Of a DNA stretch of 57,908 bases, positions 43,176 through 50,636 are shown one piece after another; position 1 is the first letter of the stretch; every line of letters starts with the position of its first letter. The DNA is from Burkholderiales bacterium (lineage in GTDB: Bacteria; Pseudomonadota; Gammaproteobacteria; Burkholderiales; SG8-39), in assembly GCA_014860355.1 (NCBI GenBank), contig JACZJV010000181.1, positions 1-57,908 of the forward strand, given 5' to 3'. A program made the position numbers and the translations under genes. The notes beneath the pieces are model-generated. The model was not told the DNA's origin. It worked only from the letters and a program-made list of their open reading frames with translations, and made no database searches.

Positions 43176-43706
43176 CTACTGCTGGCGTTCCAGCAGCAGG
43201 GGAAGGATCTGATTCACGGCTTCGCGCGCCTTTGCGCGCAGCGTGGCGTCGTCGTTGTTGGCAACAGGGTGGCCAATTACCGCAAACGGATAACCCGGCA
43301 AGCCGTTGAGTTCGCCCACCAGTTCCGCGCTGGTCGAGAAGCGGTCAGTGATGATGGCGACGGCCGGGATGCCCAGCCGCTCGGCTTCAATGGCGTCGTG
43401 CAGACTGCACGACGAGCAACTCCCTCAGTCGCCGATAGCGGAGAGGACGGCGTCCGCTCCGCTCATCTGCGCCAGCATTCCGGGAGGCACCGGCCGCGAA
43501 GCATCCGGTTTGCGCCGGCGTATGAATTCGCGCACACCGTGCTCCTTGCGCAGAATCTCCTCGACGAAATCGAACAGCCGCTCGGTGCCGATCTTGGCGT
43601 TGTCGATCATGCCGACGATAGCGCCGTCGAGCGAGGGCAGCGCCAGGGCCATGCGCATGGCGTCGCCCTGCGGTGCCTGCCTGGGATCCAGAACTCGGAG
43701 TGTCAT
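43176..43706 (-). CDS. UGSC-motif selenoprotein with in-frame TGA as selenocysteine
   Basis: A 176-residue protein when TGA at 43427-43425 is read as selenocysteine (residue 94). Upstream of it the frame gives a typical UGSC-family N-terminus (LPSLDGAIVGMIDNAKIG, then IRRRKPDASRPVPPG). Directly after it come GSCSSCSLHDAIEAERLGIPA and AELVGELNGLPGYPFAVIGHP, closing at TAG. Sec-Gly-Ser-Cys is the motif that defines the family; a U-x-x-C pair points to redox chemistry. A SECIS hairpin begins ten bases after the TGA, and selA, selB and selC lie upstream in the same direction. The ATG has AAAGGAG before it. Standard gene callers will stop at residue 93. The molecular role of the family is not known to me. 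Confidence 0.93.
43394..43427 (-). promoter_or_regulatory. Bacterial SECIS element of the UGSC selenoprotein
   Basis: Includes the Sec codon TGA (43427-43425). Ten bases later a nine-base-pair perfect stem, CGTCGTGCA (43414-43406) with TGCACGACG (43402-43394), closes a GTC apical loop. The loop lies about 20 bases after the TGA and begins with G, as bacterial SECIS elements do. The tip GTGCAGTCTGCAC closely resembles the E. coli fdhF tip (TTGCAGGTCTGCAC). SelB should bind here. The element also codes for SSCSLHD, so both functions share the sequence. Confidence 0.9.
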
Positions 43707-43732
43707 GGTTTGGTTCTCCTTTGGGACTGCGG

Positions 43733-44812
43733 TCAAACGTCGATAGCTACGGTAACTGCCAGTGATTTCTTGCCGTACCAGGGCGGAACGATCGCGCCGA
43801 ACCCTCCGGCGGGCCCGCCCGCGGCCACGACGAGCAGGTCGTCGGGGCTGCGCAGCGCGCAGTAAACCTTTTCCTCGTCCTTGCGCCCGGCAACGGCAGC
43901 CTTGCCGACCGCGCGCCAGTCGCCGCGTTTCACCCGGGCGACTTCGTACACGTATTCGCGAATATTCTGTTTGCTCCAGCCCGCTGCGGCAAAGATCTCG
44001 CGATGCTGCTTGGGAATCACGAAAGCGTAGTTTCCCTCCCAGATCGAATAAGTCAGCATGTTGTTGCGGATCGCGGACGCGTAGGTGTCGAGGATCTCCC
44101 TCGGGTCGTGGGTCCACTCGTTCATGATCTGGTGCGGGGATTGCACCTGCATGACGGTTATAGCAGAGGTGCCTGCCGGGATCCCGCGTTCGACCGACAG
44201 AGGCAGCCAGCCAGAGTCCTCCTCGTCCTCGGCCACGCAGAACGTGAACTTGCCCGGATGGCCCAGCGTGGACCGGTCGAGCTGTCCCGGAAAGCCGCCC
44301 AGGACATTCAACAGAACCAGGCGCACGCTGCGGCCGATGGTCGCATTTGCGCGCGCCGCATTGCCCAGGGCGTTGTGCGTCGCATTCATGCCGATTTCGA
44401 GACGGACCGGTCCGTTGACGACGATGAACGGCGCGCTGCCCCCGGTGCTGGCCGTGCTGCCGTGCAGGGCGTACTCTGGCCTGCACATGGCTTTGATGAT
44501 CGCGACGCTGACCGGAAAGTACTCGGGCAAGCAACCGGCCATGACCGCCGCAATCGCAAGCTTCTCGGCGCTGATGCTGCGCCGGCGTACCGGTTCTACG
44601 CCGATGATGTCGCCGGGCGCCAGGCCGGCCGCATCGAGAAAGCGCGCCACGGCGTCTTCGGTCGGCGCCACCACGGGCAGGCCATCGGTCCAGCCCTTGC
44701 GCTGGAACAATTCATTGGCCTCGGCCGCGTCGGCAACTTCCAACACTGCGCTCGCGTATCCTGCGCTGCTGCTCATTTGTCGCTCACCCGGGAAACCCTC
44801 CGTCCTGGTCAT
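43733..44812 (-). CDS. Partner protein of UGSC selenoprotein, unknown function
   Basis: 359-residue soluble protein with no signal peptide. The segments KGWTDGLPVVAPTEDAVARFL, AVMAGCLPEYFPVSVAIIKAM, HGSTASTGGSAPFIVVNGP, ARANATIGRSVRLVLLNVLG and LGHPGKFTFCVAEDEE look strongly conserved-type. I recall such sequences as hypothetical proteins next to UGSC proteins, but I cannot name an activity. The start at 44812 has GAAGG upstream and overlaps the CoA-transferase stop as ATGA; MSSSAGY at 44776 is an alternative. It ends 26 bp before the selenoprotein start. Together they probably form a two-component enzyme. Confidence 0.78.
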   Translation of the reverse strand: MTRTEGFPGERQMSSSAGYASAVLEVADAAEANELFQRKGWTDGLPVVAPTEDAVARFLDAAGLAPGDIIGVEPVRRRSISAEKLAIAAVMAGCLPEYFPVSVAIIKAMCRPEYALHGSTASTGGSAPFIVVNGPVRLEIGMNATHNALGNAARANATIGRSVRLVLLNVLGGFPGQLDRSTLGHPGKFTFCVAEDEEDSGWLPLSVERGIPAGTSAITVMQVQSPHQIMNEWTHDPREILDTYASAIRNNMLTYSIWEGNYAFVIPKQHREIFAAAGWSKQNIREYVYEVARVKRGDWRAVGKAAVAGRKDEEKVYCALRSPDDLLVVAAGGPAGGFGAIVPPWYGKKSLAVTVAIDV

Positions 44813-46041
44813 ATGATACCTTCGCTTCTGAGTCGCTGCACCTCTGCTGCACAAAGATTCGCATAACGCGCGAAAACTTCCTCGCTGTGCGCACCAGGGA
44901 CGGGTGCCGGGCTGTCGTAGCCCGCGGGTGTGCGGCTGAACTTGATCGGAAAGCCCGGCCCCGAAGCCGCGGCAGACATCCCGGTCATCGGATTTTCGAG
45001 CCGGACTATCATTTCGCGCTCCAGCAACTGAGGCCAGCACATGACTTCATCGGCTGAACGAACCGGGCTGCACGCGATACCCGCGCCGGCTAGCGCAGCG
45101 ACAATCGCATCCTTGCTGCGCGAGCCTGTCCACTGCATCACCACCGCGTCTACCTTCGCGTTATTGGCGATGCGCCAGCCGACTTGCATCATGTTCGCAT
45201 CGTCCTTGAGGTCGGAGCGTCCCATCGCTTCGAGCAGCGCCAGCCATTCGCTGTGCGTGGCCGCGCCTATCGCTACCCACCCGTCGCTAGCCTGGAACAC
45301 ATTGAAAGGCGAAAAGCGCATGATCCGGTTTCCCTGCCGGGGAGCGAGGTTCAGGCGCTCATAGCAGTCGATGGGTTCGTCGAAAATCAGCGAGAACAGG
45401 CTGTCGGACATGGCCACATCGATAGCCTGGCCTTCGCCGGTGCGCTCGCGGTGCAGCAGCGCAGCGACGATGCCGTGGGCGGCGAAAACACCGGAGATCG
45501 CGTCGGAGAGAGCCGATGCTGTCTTGACCGGCGGCTCGCCCGGCTGGCCCGTCATGCTCATGAGGCCGACAGCCGCCTGCACCATCAGGTCGTATGCCTT
45601 GTCGTTCTTCGAGGACCCGCTCGAACCATAGCCGGTGAGTGCGCAGTAGATGATTCCCGGATTTGCTTGCCGCAGCGCGGCGTAGTCGACTCCGAGCCGG
45701 CCTGCCACACCGCAACGGAAGTTCTCAACGACCACGTCCGCTTTCGCCGCAATATCTAGAAAGATCCTGCGACCCTGGTCCGATTTCAAGTCGAGCGTGA
45801 CGGATTTCTTGCCTCGGGCGCGCTTCAAATAGGCGAGTCCCATGTCCTGATCGGAGCGCCGCTCGAACGAGATTCCCCCGGGGCCATCATAGGGCGGGGC
45901 AAACGCGGTTGGATCCCCGCCTTTCGGATCGTCGATCTTGATGACCTCGGCGCCCATTCCTGCAAGCAGCAAGGTGCATTGCGGACCGGAGAAGAACCGC
46001 GTCAGATCCAGAACTACAATCCCGTCAAGAATCTTGCTCAT
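44809..46041 (-). CDS. CaiB/BaiF-family CoA-transferase
   Basis: 410-residue class III CoA-transferase. Family markers are LDGIVVLDLTRFFSGPQCTLLLAGMGAEVIKIDDP near the N-terminus, with the YLKRARGKKSVTLDLKS segment and the catalytic-Asp region in KNDKAYDLMVQAAVGLMSMTG. These enzymes move CoA between carboxylic acids through an aspartyl anhydride. GGAGGG precedes the ATG. A longer frame is rejected because its first 44 codons run into the tRNA-Sec gene. It is coupled to the UGSC partner gene, which suggests that the substrate of the selenoprotein pathway is an acid or its CoA ester (inference). Confidence 0.9.
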   Translation of the reverse strand: MSKILDGIVVLDLTRFFSGPQCTLLLAGMGAEVIKIDDPKGGDPTAFAPPYDGPGGISFERRSDQDMGLAYLKRARGKKSVTLDLKSDQGRRIFLDIAAKADVVVENFRCGVAGRLGVDYAALRQANPGIIYCALTGYGSSGSSKNDKAYDLMVQAAVGLMSMTGQPGEPPVKTASALSDAISGVFAAHGIVAALLHRERTGEGQAIDVAMSDSLFSLIFDEPIDCYERLNLAPRQGNRIMRFSPFNVFQASDGWVAIGAATHSEWLALLEAMGRSDLKDDANMMQVGWRIANNAKVDAVVMQWTGSRSKDAIVAALAGAGIACSPVRSADEVMCWPQLLEREMIVRLENPMTGMSAAASGPGFPIKFSRTPAGYDSPAPVPGAHSEEVFARYANLCAAEVQRLRSEGII

Positions 46042-46095: not shown

Positions 46096-46191
46096 TGGCG
46101 GAAGAGAGTGGGAGTCGAACCCACACAGGACCATCGAATGGCCCACACCGGATTTGAAGTCCGGCCGCACCACCGGGTGCGATTCTCTTCC
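46096..46191 (-). tRNA. selC: Selenocysteine tRNA, anticodon TCA
   Basis: The 96-base gene (CCA encoded) folds as a bacterial tRNA-Sec. The acceptor stem has eight pairs (GGAAGAGA with TCTCTTCC) and a G discriminator. The D arm has six pairs (CGCACC with GGTGCG) and a four-base loop. The anticodon stem CCGGA/TCCGG holds loop CTTCAAA with TCA at 46157-46155. A long variable arm (GGCCAT TCG ATGGTCC) follows, and the T arm is GTGGG/CCCAC with TTCGACT. It lies between the thioredoxin-reductase-like and CoA-transferase genes on the same strand. Confidence 0.97.
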
Positions 46192-46239: not shown

Positions 46240-47145
46240 TCATGAGCGGATCATTGCCAAGGCGGACTTTGCCGCAGCCCTACCTTCGGCTACAGCGCCT
46301 GTGAGCAAGCCGCCGTAGCCTGAGCGTACGGCGCCCGCCGCAAATACCCCTGGCATGGCCGTGCGCAGTCCGGCATCCGTCAACAGCGCCCCGTCGCGAT
46401 CGCGCAGGACAGCGTCCGGCACGAAACCGCAGGCAGGTTCGAGGCCGACGTAGGCGAAAAATCCGGCGCAGGCGATCTCGTCCACTGCCTCGCTATCCAG
46501 ATTGCGCACGCGCACTGCCTGTACGGCGTCCCCACCGAGCACCGCTTCGACACGCGTGCGCCACTGAACCGATATGTTCGAACTTCCAAGTATGCGCTCG
46601 GTGAAATGCCTGCGCGCCCGGAAGTGCTCGCCGCGATGCAGCAGGTGCACCCGTTTCGCATATGCACTCAGAACCAGGGCTTCCTGCAGCGCCGAATCTC
46701 CGCCCCCGACCACGACCACGTCGCGATCCTGGTAATACGGACCGTCGCAATCGGCGCAGTGCGAAACGCCCTTGTCCTCAAACTCGCTTTCTCCCGGCAC
46801 TCCCAGCCGCCTGAGCCTGGCGCCCGAGGCAATGATGACGGCGCTGGCCCGGTGCGCGCCGGTATCGCTATGCACGACCAAGTCCTCGCCCTCGGCCGTC
46901 ATCGACGTCGCGCCCGCCGGGAGATGCTCTGCACCGAGTTTGCGCACCTTCATCATGAGGCTGGACGCAAGATCGATACCCGAGCCCTGGATCTCGCCGT
47001 CGAGTTCGTTGATGTTGGTGACCAGGCCGCCGTAGAGCAGGCTTTCCAGCGTGAGCGTGGACAGGCCGCTCTCCAGTGCCTGCCTGGCTGCGCTCAGTCC
47101 GGCAATGCCGCTGCCGATGACGACGAGATCGTGCGTTTTTGACAT
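46240..47145 (-). CDS. Thioredoxin reductase-like FAD/NAD(P)H oxidoreductase
   Basis: 301-residue low-molecular-weight TrxR-type flavoprotein. The FAD motif is VIGSGIAGLSAA near the N-terminus, the redox pair is Cys130-Ala-Asp-Cys133 (HCADCDGPYY), the NADPH motif is VVVGGGDSALQEAL, and the C-terminal FAD motif is GVFAAGAV. The partner thiol protein is not next door, but the gene sits 25 bp after selB and just before selC, so it could reduce the UGSC selenoprotein or supply selenide chemistry (inference). TTG at 47154 is an alternative start. General thioredoxin reductase is the other option. Confidence 0.88.
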   Translation of the reverse strand: MSKTHDLVVIGSGIAGLSAARQALESGLSTLTLESLLYGGLVTNINELDGEIQGSGIDLASSLMMKVRKLGAEHLPAGATSMTAEGEDLVVHSDTGAHRASAVIIASGARLRRLGVPGESEFEDKGVSHCADCDGPYYQDRDVVVVGGGDSALQEALVLSAYAKRVHLLHRGEHFRARRHFTERILGSSNISVQWRTRVEAVLGGDAVQAVRVRNLDSEAVDEIACAGFFAYVGLEPACGFVPDAVLRDRDGALLTDAGLRTAMPGVFAAGAVRSGYGGLLTGAVAEGRAAAKSALAMIRS

Positions 47146-47170
47146 GGAGGTCAAGTCCTGATGCGGGAAG

Positions 47171-49114
47171 CTAAGCCCTGGATTGCTGCTGCGCGTACGG
47201 GCCGAGGATCGGCAGGTAGTCCTTGCAGATGACGCGCAGGTCGCCGATGCGCCGGGTGATGCCGAGACGGTCGAAGCATTCCAGGATCTGGATTACCCGC
47301 GTGCGCCCGATGTCGGTGCGGTCCCGGACTTGCGCAGCGCTGAACCTGGCCTCAGGCGAAGCGCGAAACGCGGACTCGGCAACAGCCGCAAACTGCGCCA
47401 AGGTCGCGCGCAGGTAAAACCGCTCCGGCGTGACGCAGACGAGTTCCCCGGTTCTTGCCTTGCGGTGCAGAAAATCCTTTAGTACCGGTTCTTTGATTTT
47501 CGCCGCCGTAGCGAGTTGCGCAATCGTCAATCCGTTGAATCCCGCGCCGGCGAGCATGGGGCGCATCCGCTGCCACAGGGTTTCGTCTGCCGGGTTGTCG
47601 GTGGCTACGTGCCGGGGCGCTTTGGCCAGGGAACCGCTCAGCTCGATCTGCCTTTCGTCGGCAAGCCGGCGCAGCAGGAACTGAAACGTTTCCGCCGTGA
47701 GCTGGGGGGCGCATTCGCGCCGAAGCGCTGCGCTCTCCATGCCGAGGGCGCGTGGCCTTTCCGCATGAAACCGCTCCAGCGCGTCGCGTACGGCCGCATT
47801 GATCGTCGCGACGCTCGCGCGCGACAGACCGGTGCGAAGCTCCTTGCCGACGACCACCATGTCCCTGCTTTGCACGAGCGCCGCCAGGTGTTCGTCGTCC
47901 AGATTGAAAATGCGCGCGAACCATGACAGGTTCACGCCGGCGGGCGAGCATGCAAGCAGTGCGTCCAGCGCCTCGCGCGGGTCTGCGGATTCGAGCGCTT
48001 GCAGCTGGGCGGCGCGCAATTGCGGATCACGGCGCCGGGGCGGCGGGTACGGGTCGATGACCGCGCCCCCGCCGATGGTGCGCAGCGCCGACTGGTCGCG
48101 GACGATGAAGCGATCACCGTTCAGCGCCGCGATGGGTTTGTCGACGAGCAATTGCGCCAGCGCCGATGCTCCCGGTCCGATCTCGGCACCCCGCCGGATC
48201 GAAATCCGCGCCGTCACGTCTTTCGCGCCATGGTGCAGATGCACGGTCGTCCAATGCTTCAGCGGCCGGGTTTGCGCTCCGAGCAGCTGCAGGCGCACAT
48301 CCATGCGCGAGGTAGGCGCGTGCAGCGCGGGGGATACCAGCCAGTCCCCGCGTCCCGCATCGGCGAGTTCGACGCCGGACAGGTTGAGGGCGCAGCGCTC
48401 GCCTGCGACCGCCCGATCCGCCATCTTCCCGTCCTTCTGAATGGCGCGAACGCGAACCTCGACGCCGGCGGGCGAGAGCGTCAGCCTGTCCCCGGCAGCG
48501 GCAGCGCCCGTAAAAACCGTGCCGGTAGCAACCGTACCGCTACCCGCCACGGTGAAGACGCGGTCGACGGCAAAGCGGAATCGCCGCCCGAGCTGCCCCT
48601 GGCGGCGCAAGGTCCTCGCAGAATCCGCCAGCGCCGAGCGCAGCCGGTCCATGCCAATTCCGGACACCGCCGAAAGCTGCAGCACATCGATCGAGGCGAG
48701 GCCGGTCGCAGCAAGCAGTTCCTTCACGCTGGCGGCCACCTCCTGCGCACGTTGCGGCGAGCTTCGGTCGATCTTGGTGATCAGGGCAATGCCGCTTTTC
48801 ACCGACAGGAGCTGGAGGATATGCAGGTGTTCGACGGTCTGCGGCATCACGCCGTCGTCGGCGGCGACGACGAGCATGACGTAGTCGATGCCGCAGACGC
48901 CGGCCAGCATGTTGCGCACGAAGCGCTCGTGGCCCGGCACGTCCACGAATCCGACGCTGAGACCGTCCCCGGGAGTGCGCCAGTAGGCAAAGCCGAGGTC
49001 GATCGAAATGCCGCGCGCCTTTTCCTCGGGCAGGCGGTCGGTGTCGACCCCGGTCAAGGCCCTGACCAGGGTGGTCTTGCCGTGGTCTATGTGGCCGGCG
49101 GTCGCGACTATCAT
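47171..49114 (-). CDS. selB: Selenocysteine-specific elongation factor SelB
   Basis: 647-residue GTPase that carries Sec-tRNA to UGA codons by binding the SECIS hairpin. The G motifs are intact: GHIDHGKTT at the N-terminus, DVPGHE and TKID. The EF-Tu-like domains II and III follow, with [14 protein letters not shown]. The C-terminal third carries winged-helix domains that bind SECIS RNA, for example the segment ending [27 protein letters not shown]. The ATG overlaps the selA stop codon (ATGA), so the two are coupled. Confidence 0.97.
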
Positions 49115-50523
49115 GGCGCGCCGTCTGGCGACGCGAGGTGCTGCAGTTGAAAGACAAACTCGTGTTCATCGTCGAGGCAGCGCAGATCGAGGATCAGTTC
49201 ACCCTCGCTGATGCGGCCGATCACCGGCACCGGCAGCGCGCGAAAAGCCGCAGCCAGCGCGTCCGCCGCGCCGCTGCGGCGTTTGCCGCGCGGCGTCAGC
49301 GCGATTCCTGCGCTGGGCAAGGTATCCACCGGGAGCGCACCGCTGCCGATCTGGCTCAGGCAATCGACGATCCGGGTCGTTGCCAGCCCGTCGGCGGCCT
49401 TCGCGACCACGGGCATTATTCCCGCCGCCTGGGTGCGGATCTCGGCCTGCGACCGGGTCAGCATGCGCAGCGTGGGCAAGTCTCGCGCAAGCGTTTCCGG
49501 TCTGGCATACAGGCGCAGAACCGCCTCGAGCGCAGCGAGCCGAATCTTGTCCAGGCGCAGTGCGCGCTTCATCGGATTCCTCCTGATTTTCTCGATCAGG
49601 TCCGCGCGTCCGACGATCAGCCCGCATTGCGGGCCGCCGAGCAATTTGTCGCCGCTGAAAGTAACGACATCTGCTCCGTTGGCGATCGCTTCCTGTGGCG
49701 TCGGCTCGTGCGCAAGTCCGAACGCCTCCAGCTCGACCAGGGTGCCGGAGCCCAGGTCGTTGATGAGGGGCACTGCATGCTGCCGGGCGATGGCCGCCAG
49801 TTCGGATTCGGGAACCGTTGCCGTGTATCCATGAACCGCATAATTGCTCGTGTGGACCTTCATGATCGCGCCGGTGGCTGTTCCCAGGGCGCGCACGAAA
49901 TCCTGCGGGTGCGTCCGGTTGGTGGTGCCCACTTCGCGCAGCTTGCAGCCGGCGCTGGCCATGATGTCCGGAATGCGGAACGCGCCTCCGATTTCGACCA
50001 GTTCGCCGCGCGATACCAGAACCTCCCTGCGGCGCGCCAACGCATAAAGCGCGAGATATACCGCTGCCGCGTTGTTGTTGACGACAACGGCGGCCGCGGC
50101 GCCCGTCAGCCGGGTCAGCCAGGCTTCGACATGGCTGTCACGCTCGCCGCGGGCCGCACCGTCCACGTCGTATTCGAGATTGACCGGACGTGCCATCGCG
50201 CCGACGGCGGCCGCAACGGCCGCCTCGGGCAGCAGGGCGCGTCCGAGGTTGGTATGCAGCACGGTACCGCTGAGATTGAACACCGGGCGCAAGGACGGGC
50301 GCAGCAGCGCCTCGACCCTGGCAGCACAGGCGGCCGCGAGTACAGCGTCCGCCGGACAGCGGGCGCCCGGGTCGGACGCAAGGCGCGTACGCTCTGCGGC
50401 AAGCACGCCGCGTACCGCTTCGAGCAGCAGCGTACGGCCGTAGCGCCCGGCGAGTTGCGCTCCTGCGGCGGAGTTGAGCAACCGGTCTACCGAGGGCAGT
50501 GAGGCGCGATCTCCCTGCTTCAT
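49111..50523 (-). CDS. selA: L-seryl-tRNA(Sec) selenium transferase SelA
   Basis: 470-residue PLP enzyme that converts Ser-tRNA(Sec) to Sec-tRNA(Sec) with selenophosphate. The PLP lysine is Lys293 in [11 protein letters not shown]. Other SelA hallmarks are LPSVDRLLN at the N-terminus, [57 protein letters not shown] and [20 protein letters not shown] chose the ATG giving [10 protein letters not shown]; the frame is open 30 codons further upstream. It heads the selA-selB gene pair. selD, which makes selenophosphate, is not in this window. Confidence 0.96.
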
Positions 50524-50611
50524 CAGCTCGGTCCGGCGACGTTGACCTGCCTTTGCTGTCTGGCCATAGTCATTGGAGTGGTCTGCCCGGTGCGCGGACA
50601 TTCGATCGGTC

Positions 50612-50636
50612 AAAAGGAGGGTTGCCGCATCCCTCC
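50612..50636 (-). terminator. Rho-independent terminator before selA
   Basis: On the minus strand GGAGGG (50636-50631) and CCCTCC (50621-50616) form a stem with a nine-base loop followed by TTTT. It lies about 90 bases after the bacteriohemerythrin gene, and so separates it from selA, about 90 bases further on. Confidence 0.5.

Follow-up and report, generated by a model that had tools for sequence, protein, structure and literature searches.

Gene arrangement at the locus

The window, i.e. the whole stretch of 57,908 nucleotides that was analysed, carries on its minus strand a group of genes in which selA, selB, a thioredoxin-reductase-like gene and tRNA-Sec all precede a CoA-transferase gene, a gene of an uncharacterised family (hereafter the partner) and a UGSC-family gene with an in-frame TGA. 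The individual features are:

43176..43706, minus strand: UGSC-family selenoprotein gene, 176 aa with selenocysteine (Sec) at residue 94, supported by read-through translation, profile matches and orthologue comparison
43427-43425, minus strand: in-frame TGA (codon 94) read as selenocysteine, supported by comparison with orthologues and homologues
43394..43414, minus strand: SECIS stem-loop with a 9-bp stem and a GUC loop 22 nt past the first base of the TGA, supported by conservation and covariation
43716..43720, minus strand: AGGAG, a ribosome-binding-like site ahead of the UGSC start, read from the sequence
43733..44812, minus strand: partner gene, 359 aa from the ATG at 44812, whose homologues adjoin UGSC or are fused to it
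44809..46041, minus strand: CoA-transferase family III gene, whose stop overlaps the partner ATG as ATGA
46100..46191, minus strand: tRNA-Sec, anticodon UCA (Rfam RF01852, 79.8 bits; ARAGORN 46096-46191)
46240..47154, minus strand: thioredoxin-reductase-like flavoprotein with a CADC motif (TIGR01292, 238 bits, below the cut-off of 343)
47171..49114, minus strand: selB, Sec-specific elongation factor (TIGR00475, 421 bits against a cut-off of 242)
49111..50613, minus strand: selA, L-seryl-tRNA(Sec) selenium transferase (TIGR00474, 557 bits against a cut-off of 268; PF03841)

For the CoA-transferase the ATG at 46041 was chosen as the likely start, the open frame itself reaching 46173 and thus into the tRNA. 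SelD was found elsewhere in the genome, with two selD hits over the cut-off.

Translated on the minus strand with TGA as Sec, the UGSC frame starts with the ATG at 43706, meets the TGA at codon 94 and continues for 82 codons to the stop at 43176. The coordinates given by an earlier sequence-only reading were thereby confirmed, as was its placement of Sec-Gly-Ser-Cys exactly at the TGA. Its assignment to the UGSC family was borne out by the profile searches, in which the read-through product exceeded both curated cut-offs: PF24696 (UGSC family) matched residues 4-171 with the TGA inside (166.9 bits against a cut-off of 25; E 6.3e-49), and NF041046, the model that NCBI holds for the family in NCBIfam, gave 127.1 bits against a cut-off of 125. 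The same site scored 119.7 bits in the six-frame genome search, below that cut-off. Furthermore, Sec (or Cys)-Gly-Ser-Cys is present at the conserved site, and both a bacterial SECIS just 3' of the UGA and the Sec machinery of the genome are found. The window protein resembles the family (PF24696, NF041046) as it is described in PMC2398784 and PMC13188914 in motif, length, SECIS and Sec/Cys exchange, with no essential difference; the partner is separate and upstream in the window and fused in other members. The gene falls in a family published since at least 2008 and is therefore no new kind of selenoprotein; it is a clean example of a known family whose frame is truncated to 93 residues by the standard reading. 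Neither the Sec machinery in the window nor the upstream gene 43733-44812 had been noticed in the sequence-only reading.

Decoding of the in-frame TGA

If the TGA at which the standard reading ends were a true stop, the locus would hold a 93-aa protein followed by a decaying remnant, or a pseudogene. Five orthologues were compared in this respect, namely two from relatives, two from betaproteobacterial metagenome genomes and one from Sheuella amnicola. All five carry the TGA at the same codon, and Ka/Ks (pN/pS where saturated) was 0.08-0.26 before the TGA and 0.19-0.28 after it, so that, judged by these ratios, both halves of the gene are under purifying selection. The stop-codon and pseudogene readings were rejected on account of this downstream selection and the retention of the TGA, and the full Sec machinery as well as the TGC that three actinobacterial homologues have at this position also speak against them; we regard such a stop as exceedingly improbable. 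Homologues ending at the TGA, or unconserved downstream codons, had been named beforehand as signs of a true stop; the homologues run past the TGA and the codons are conserved.

The exchange of Sec for Cys was followed in two sets of genomes. In 80 loci of named genomes, which had been fetched by the partner and not by UGSC, 82 UGSC domain hits were obtained: 77 have TGA at the site, TGC replaces it in three (Mycobacterium gordonae, Mycobacterium sp. 1164966.3 and Nakamurella leprariae), and the other two are fragments that lack this position. Exactly one TGA was present in 91 of the 99 profile matches from 60 genomes (this one and 59 relatives), the remaining eight being three short pieces and five longer copies without TGA, of which the three that were read carry Cys at the site. 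These residues also bear on the possibility that no Sec is involved and that the UGA specifies some other amino acid or is passed by general readthrough. Only the open frame is in favour of such decoding, whereas the three named homologues without TGA have Cys and not Trp at the site, the SECIS is conserved beyond coding constraint (see below), and selA, selB and tRNA-Sec lie nearby, leaving it a practically negligible probability. Four lines, i.e. machinery, selection, homologues and SECIS, thus agree in supporting selenocysteine as the meaning of the TGA. The sequence comparisons likewise support the earlier claim of one intact UGSC-family selenoprotein gene of 176 aa at 43176-43706, rather than two fragments or a pseudogene.

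The SECIS hairpin

A hairpin starting ten bases past the TGA had been noted before, and a perfect 9-bp stem was indeed found 10 nt after the TGA (arms 43414-43406 and 43402-43394), closed by a GUC loop. When 143 TGA sites were scored, the stem averaged 7.15 compared to 5.07 (sd 0.11, maximum 5.28) in 100 synonymous-codon shuffles, every one of which lay below the natural mean. In 102 of these 143 sites the loop begins at a common offset, and 138 have G in the first two loop positions. In a set of 75 distinct sequences, none of 500 shuffles reached the natural value of either the covariation score (0.173, shuffled 0.089) or the stem pairing (85.3%, shuffled 79.2%). Two of the five covariation measures were not above the shuffles, namely the pairs changed on both sides (215/500) and the further pair types (440/500), and a slide of the stem by +2 gave nearly as many doubly changed cells (27 compared to 28). 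According to the shuffle comparisons, the hairpin is conserved beyond coding constraint.

With respect to thermodynamic stability, the hairpin in its 63-nt context was no more stable than dinucleotide shuffles (z -0.47; shorter stretches -0.84 and -1.51), and the support for the SECIS therefore lies in conservation and not in raw stability. The bare stem, which was chosen after the fact, is unusually stable (z -4.1).

Pairing with the partner gene

The partner family has a length of about 350 aa and gave no convincing match in Pfam, NCBIfam or PDB. When 83 partner proteins were compared with NCBIfam, seven families were hit at E <= 0.1, by a single protein in each case (best E 0.017), and none of these families was of the GrdE/PrdA type. 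In separate searches of 60 genomes (this one included), UGSC was found in 19 and the partner in 18 of those 19 and in none of the 41 others; in the lone genome with UGSC and without partner, the UGSC gene lies about 240 bp from the contig end. The same picture was obtained from 60 further fetched stretches, where a partner domain on the same strand is present within 300 bp of 67 of 69 UGSC domain hits, both exceptions being at contig ends, and two of 72 partner hits are without UGSC within 1.5 kb. At the named loci, UGSC was absent from the 800 bp around five of 83 partner hits; three of these five hits end no more than 250 bp from the end of the contig, and the other two have a UGSC at a distance of about 950 bp.

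The gene order is variable, with the partner first (as in the window), UGSC first or both fused. Among the 31 UGSC loci first fetched (window included), the two genes are separate in 18 and form a single fused frame in 12, the remaining locus being truncated at a contig end. A conserved domain, Unknown_1, was reported as fused to UGSC as early as 2008 (PMC2398784), and this domain is probably the partner family described here. Furthermore, the distance matrices of UGSC and partner within one genome correlate with 0.92 (23 pairs) in the relative G018 and 0.84 (18 pairs) in the relative G040, compared to at most 0.36 in shuffles, which shows, as far as such distances go, that the pairs are inherited as units. 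A mirror-tree correlation of this kind is no proof of contact because linkage alone could produce it.

These observations bear on the question whether UGSC could be a stand-alone thioredoxin-fold thiol/selenol oxidoreductase or antioxidant with the partner as a frequent separate neighbour. The separation of the two genes at 18 of the 31 loci, the window among them, is in line with such a role, as is the UxxC motif; the near absolute co-occurrence and the fusions stand against it. From its gene context, UGSC is probably one half of a near-obligate pair and not a stand-alone redox protein. Recoding and gene pairing are thus both supported at the sequence level. The earlier description of the product as one redox protein holds with regard to the intact 176-residue chain; with its near-constant partner, this chain resembles a subunit of an enzyme more than a redox protein acting alone.

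Predicted fold and relation to GrdB/PrdB

In the thioredoxin fold, strands and helices succeed one another as beta-alpha-beta-alpha-beta-beta-alpha, and UxxC is located at the first long helix. UGSC shares with the thioredoxin-fold UxxC selenoproteins the motif at a helix start and differs from them in the strand/helix order of its predicted model. In this model (mean pLDDT 91.2) strand and helix alternate five times (strands 30-35, 60-65, 86-92, 115-120 and 142-144 with a helix between each) and no strand hairpin occurs; Sec94 is located at the start of the helix following the third strand. A Foldseek search with the model gave 1604 PDB matches (E <= 10), the best 50 of which contained no thioredoxin and no good global match and consisted of general alpha/beta proteins with modest TM-scores. 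The model thus points to a fold that is probably alpha/beta Rossmann-type and not thioredoxin, and it speaks against the 'likely Trx-like fold' given for UGSC in the 2008 paper (PMC2398784). Taking the fold together with the pairing, we consider a stand-alone thioredoxin-like protein unlikely.

Regarding the partner, the model of the protein alone is of similar quality (mean pLDDT 93.5), and its comparison with the PDB gave no match at E 0.001 or better. Fold matches to cyclic amide hydrolases and fumarase were dismissed as not meaningful, with none at E 0.001 or below and TM about 0.2.

For 76 aligned UGSC proteins, five models of the GrdB/PrdB type (glycine and D-proline reductase Sec subunits; PF07355, TIGR01917, TIGR04483) were the most frequent matches after the own family, TIGR01917 being matched by 35 of the 76 at E <= 0.1 with a best E of about 1e-5. 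UxxC at the aligned site and a similar stretch after it are common to both, although UGSC scores far below the family cut-offs: the window protein reached 14.0 bits against TIGR01917 (cut-off 602.2), and PF07355 was not among its Pfam matches at E <= 0.001. A PrdB-like profile was built from ten PF07355-matching proteins of related genomes, three of which were checked and found to be PrdB-like. Its hhalign comparison with UGSC gave E 6.7e-4 at a probability of only 27%, with Sec aligned on Sec, while the control comparisons of the partner with the PrdB-like and UGSC profiles revealed no relation (E 0.3 and 0.23). Sequence searches of the PDB with the UGSC, PrdB-like and partner profiles found no credible relative (best E 0.16, 0.02 and none, respectively). 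We read this weak similarity as that of a probable distant relative of the GrdB/PrdB Sec domain and not of a member.

GrdB and PrdB work with the pyruvoyl proproteins GrdE and PrdA. A Sec subunit that works with a second protein can be likened to UGSC and its partner; nothing resembling the pyruvoyl type of GrdE/PrdA was found among the partner-family proteins in NCBIfam and Pfam. As a side observation, PrdB-like genes of relatives (L203-L205, L207, L208, L210-L212) have a TGA inside a UPxC motif with the frame continuing, and are likely selenoproteins cut short by the standard reading.

Expansion and distribution of the family

The relative G018 contains 34 UGSC profile matches, 31 of them with an in-frame TGA, and G040 contains 19, each with one TGA. 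The median identity between the G018 paralogues is 26% (23 pairs compared), and such a number of divergent TGA-bearing copies in one genome fits substrate-specific enzymes better than an antioxidant with a housekeeping role. Since the seven species of the genus of G018, which belongs to the window's family, show 1 to 32 NF041046 matches each, the expansion is unlikely to stem from one chimaeric assembly. In a survey of 98 genomes of the window's family (this one included), 42 were matched by NF041046 and only 18 passed its tight cut-off, so that many true UGSC members may go unnamed.

For comparison, a row in a 2016 survey of over 5200 genomes, 'UGSC-containing protein 26 33', can be read as 26 organisms and 33 genes (PMC5029168). 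In the Global Ocean Sampling data, according to the 2008 paper (PMC2398784), UGSC was one of the most common selenoproteins, particularly in samples of non-marine origin. A 2026 review counts UGSC among the families largely uncharacterised in function and puts selenoproteomes of 57 and 63 genes on record, so that the total of G018 is no record (PMC13188914). A literature search of open-licence papers found no published report of such a UGSC expansion.

Proposed function and gene neighbourhood

We conclude that the locus very probably encodes an intact UGSC selenoprotein, with UGA decoded as Sec94, that would act as the Sec subunit of a two-subunit enzyme together with the product of 43733-44812. 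Decoding of the UGA would be carried out by SelB together with Sec-tRNA(Sec), the genes for both lying 2.4-5.4 kb upstream, and directed by the stem-loop located 22 nt downstream; the UGSC product would provide the Sec-bearing subunit and the upstream gene the other one. We infer a joint enzyme with a Sec nucleophile and a putative chemistry, in which the Sec94/Cys97 pair at the helix N-end of the Rossmann-type domain may serve as nucleophile or as redox couple towards a small substrate bound jointly with the partner, much as the probably related GrdB/PrdB Sec domains do. A candidate electron donor is the cluster's thioredoxin-reductase-like flavoprotein (46240..47154), which may mediate re-reduction by NADPH, and the coupled CoA-transferase would suggest a CoA-activated organic acid as the substrate.

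Of greatest interest are the partner and the radiation of the pair, for which a two-subunit selenoenzyme is the working hypothesis: near-obligate partner, probable non-thioredoxin fold and 31 TGA copies would turn an 'unknown redox protein' into a testable two-subunit enzyme. More tentatively, and with somewhat more doubt than confidence, UGSC and partner may form a large class of two-subunit selenoenzymes, distant kin of the GrdB/PrdB Sec domain, with a Sec nucleophile acting on diverse organic acids or CoA thioesters and a partner fold without clear solved relative. This class might have radiated into dozens of substrate-specific Sec-encoding paralogues per genome in bacteria such as Betaproteobacteria, Alphaproteobacteria, Actinobacteria and Chloroflexi.

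The remaining neighbours were counted over 159 UGSC/partner blocks in 141 stretches. The CoA-transferase is part of the UGSC operon chain in four blocks (window, L082, L089 and L145) and lies anywhere in 15 stretches; the thioredoxin-reductase-like gene is part of the chain in three blocks and lies anywhere in 10 stretches, and SelA or SelB is present in 10. The rule for operon chains permits little overlap and the chain counts are lower bounds, as illustrated by L163, where a thioredoxin-reductase-like frame directly after UGSC was undercounted. Because only three and four of the 159 chains hold them, neither the thioredoxin-reductase-like gene nor the CoA-transferase looks like a general component; both links are suggestive and fit some members. 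TctC/Bug solute-binding proteins, the commonest UGSC neighbours, were taken as background because four of five genomes checked carry at least 133 such genes, compared to nine here.

A second Sec cluster was observed in the same genome (G000:C38; L081:2942-8094), consisting of tRNA-Sec, selB, a thioredoxin-reductase-like gene and a fused UGSC-partner gene. Its selB is 53% identical to the first, one selA was found in the genome, and its tetranucleotide make-up fits the genome (r 0.98), which may be a mixed assembly. The thioredoxin-reductase-like genes of the two clusters are only 28% identical, so that the group to which they belong ('cluster 6') is a loose one. The CoA-transferase-partner-UGSC order of the window recurs in a SAR116 single-cell genome (L145, 64-8539), where a PrdB-type gene (by eye), selB, CoA-transferase, partner, UGSC and selA lie within 8.5 kb and the three genes are situated between selB and selA.
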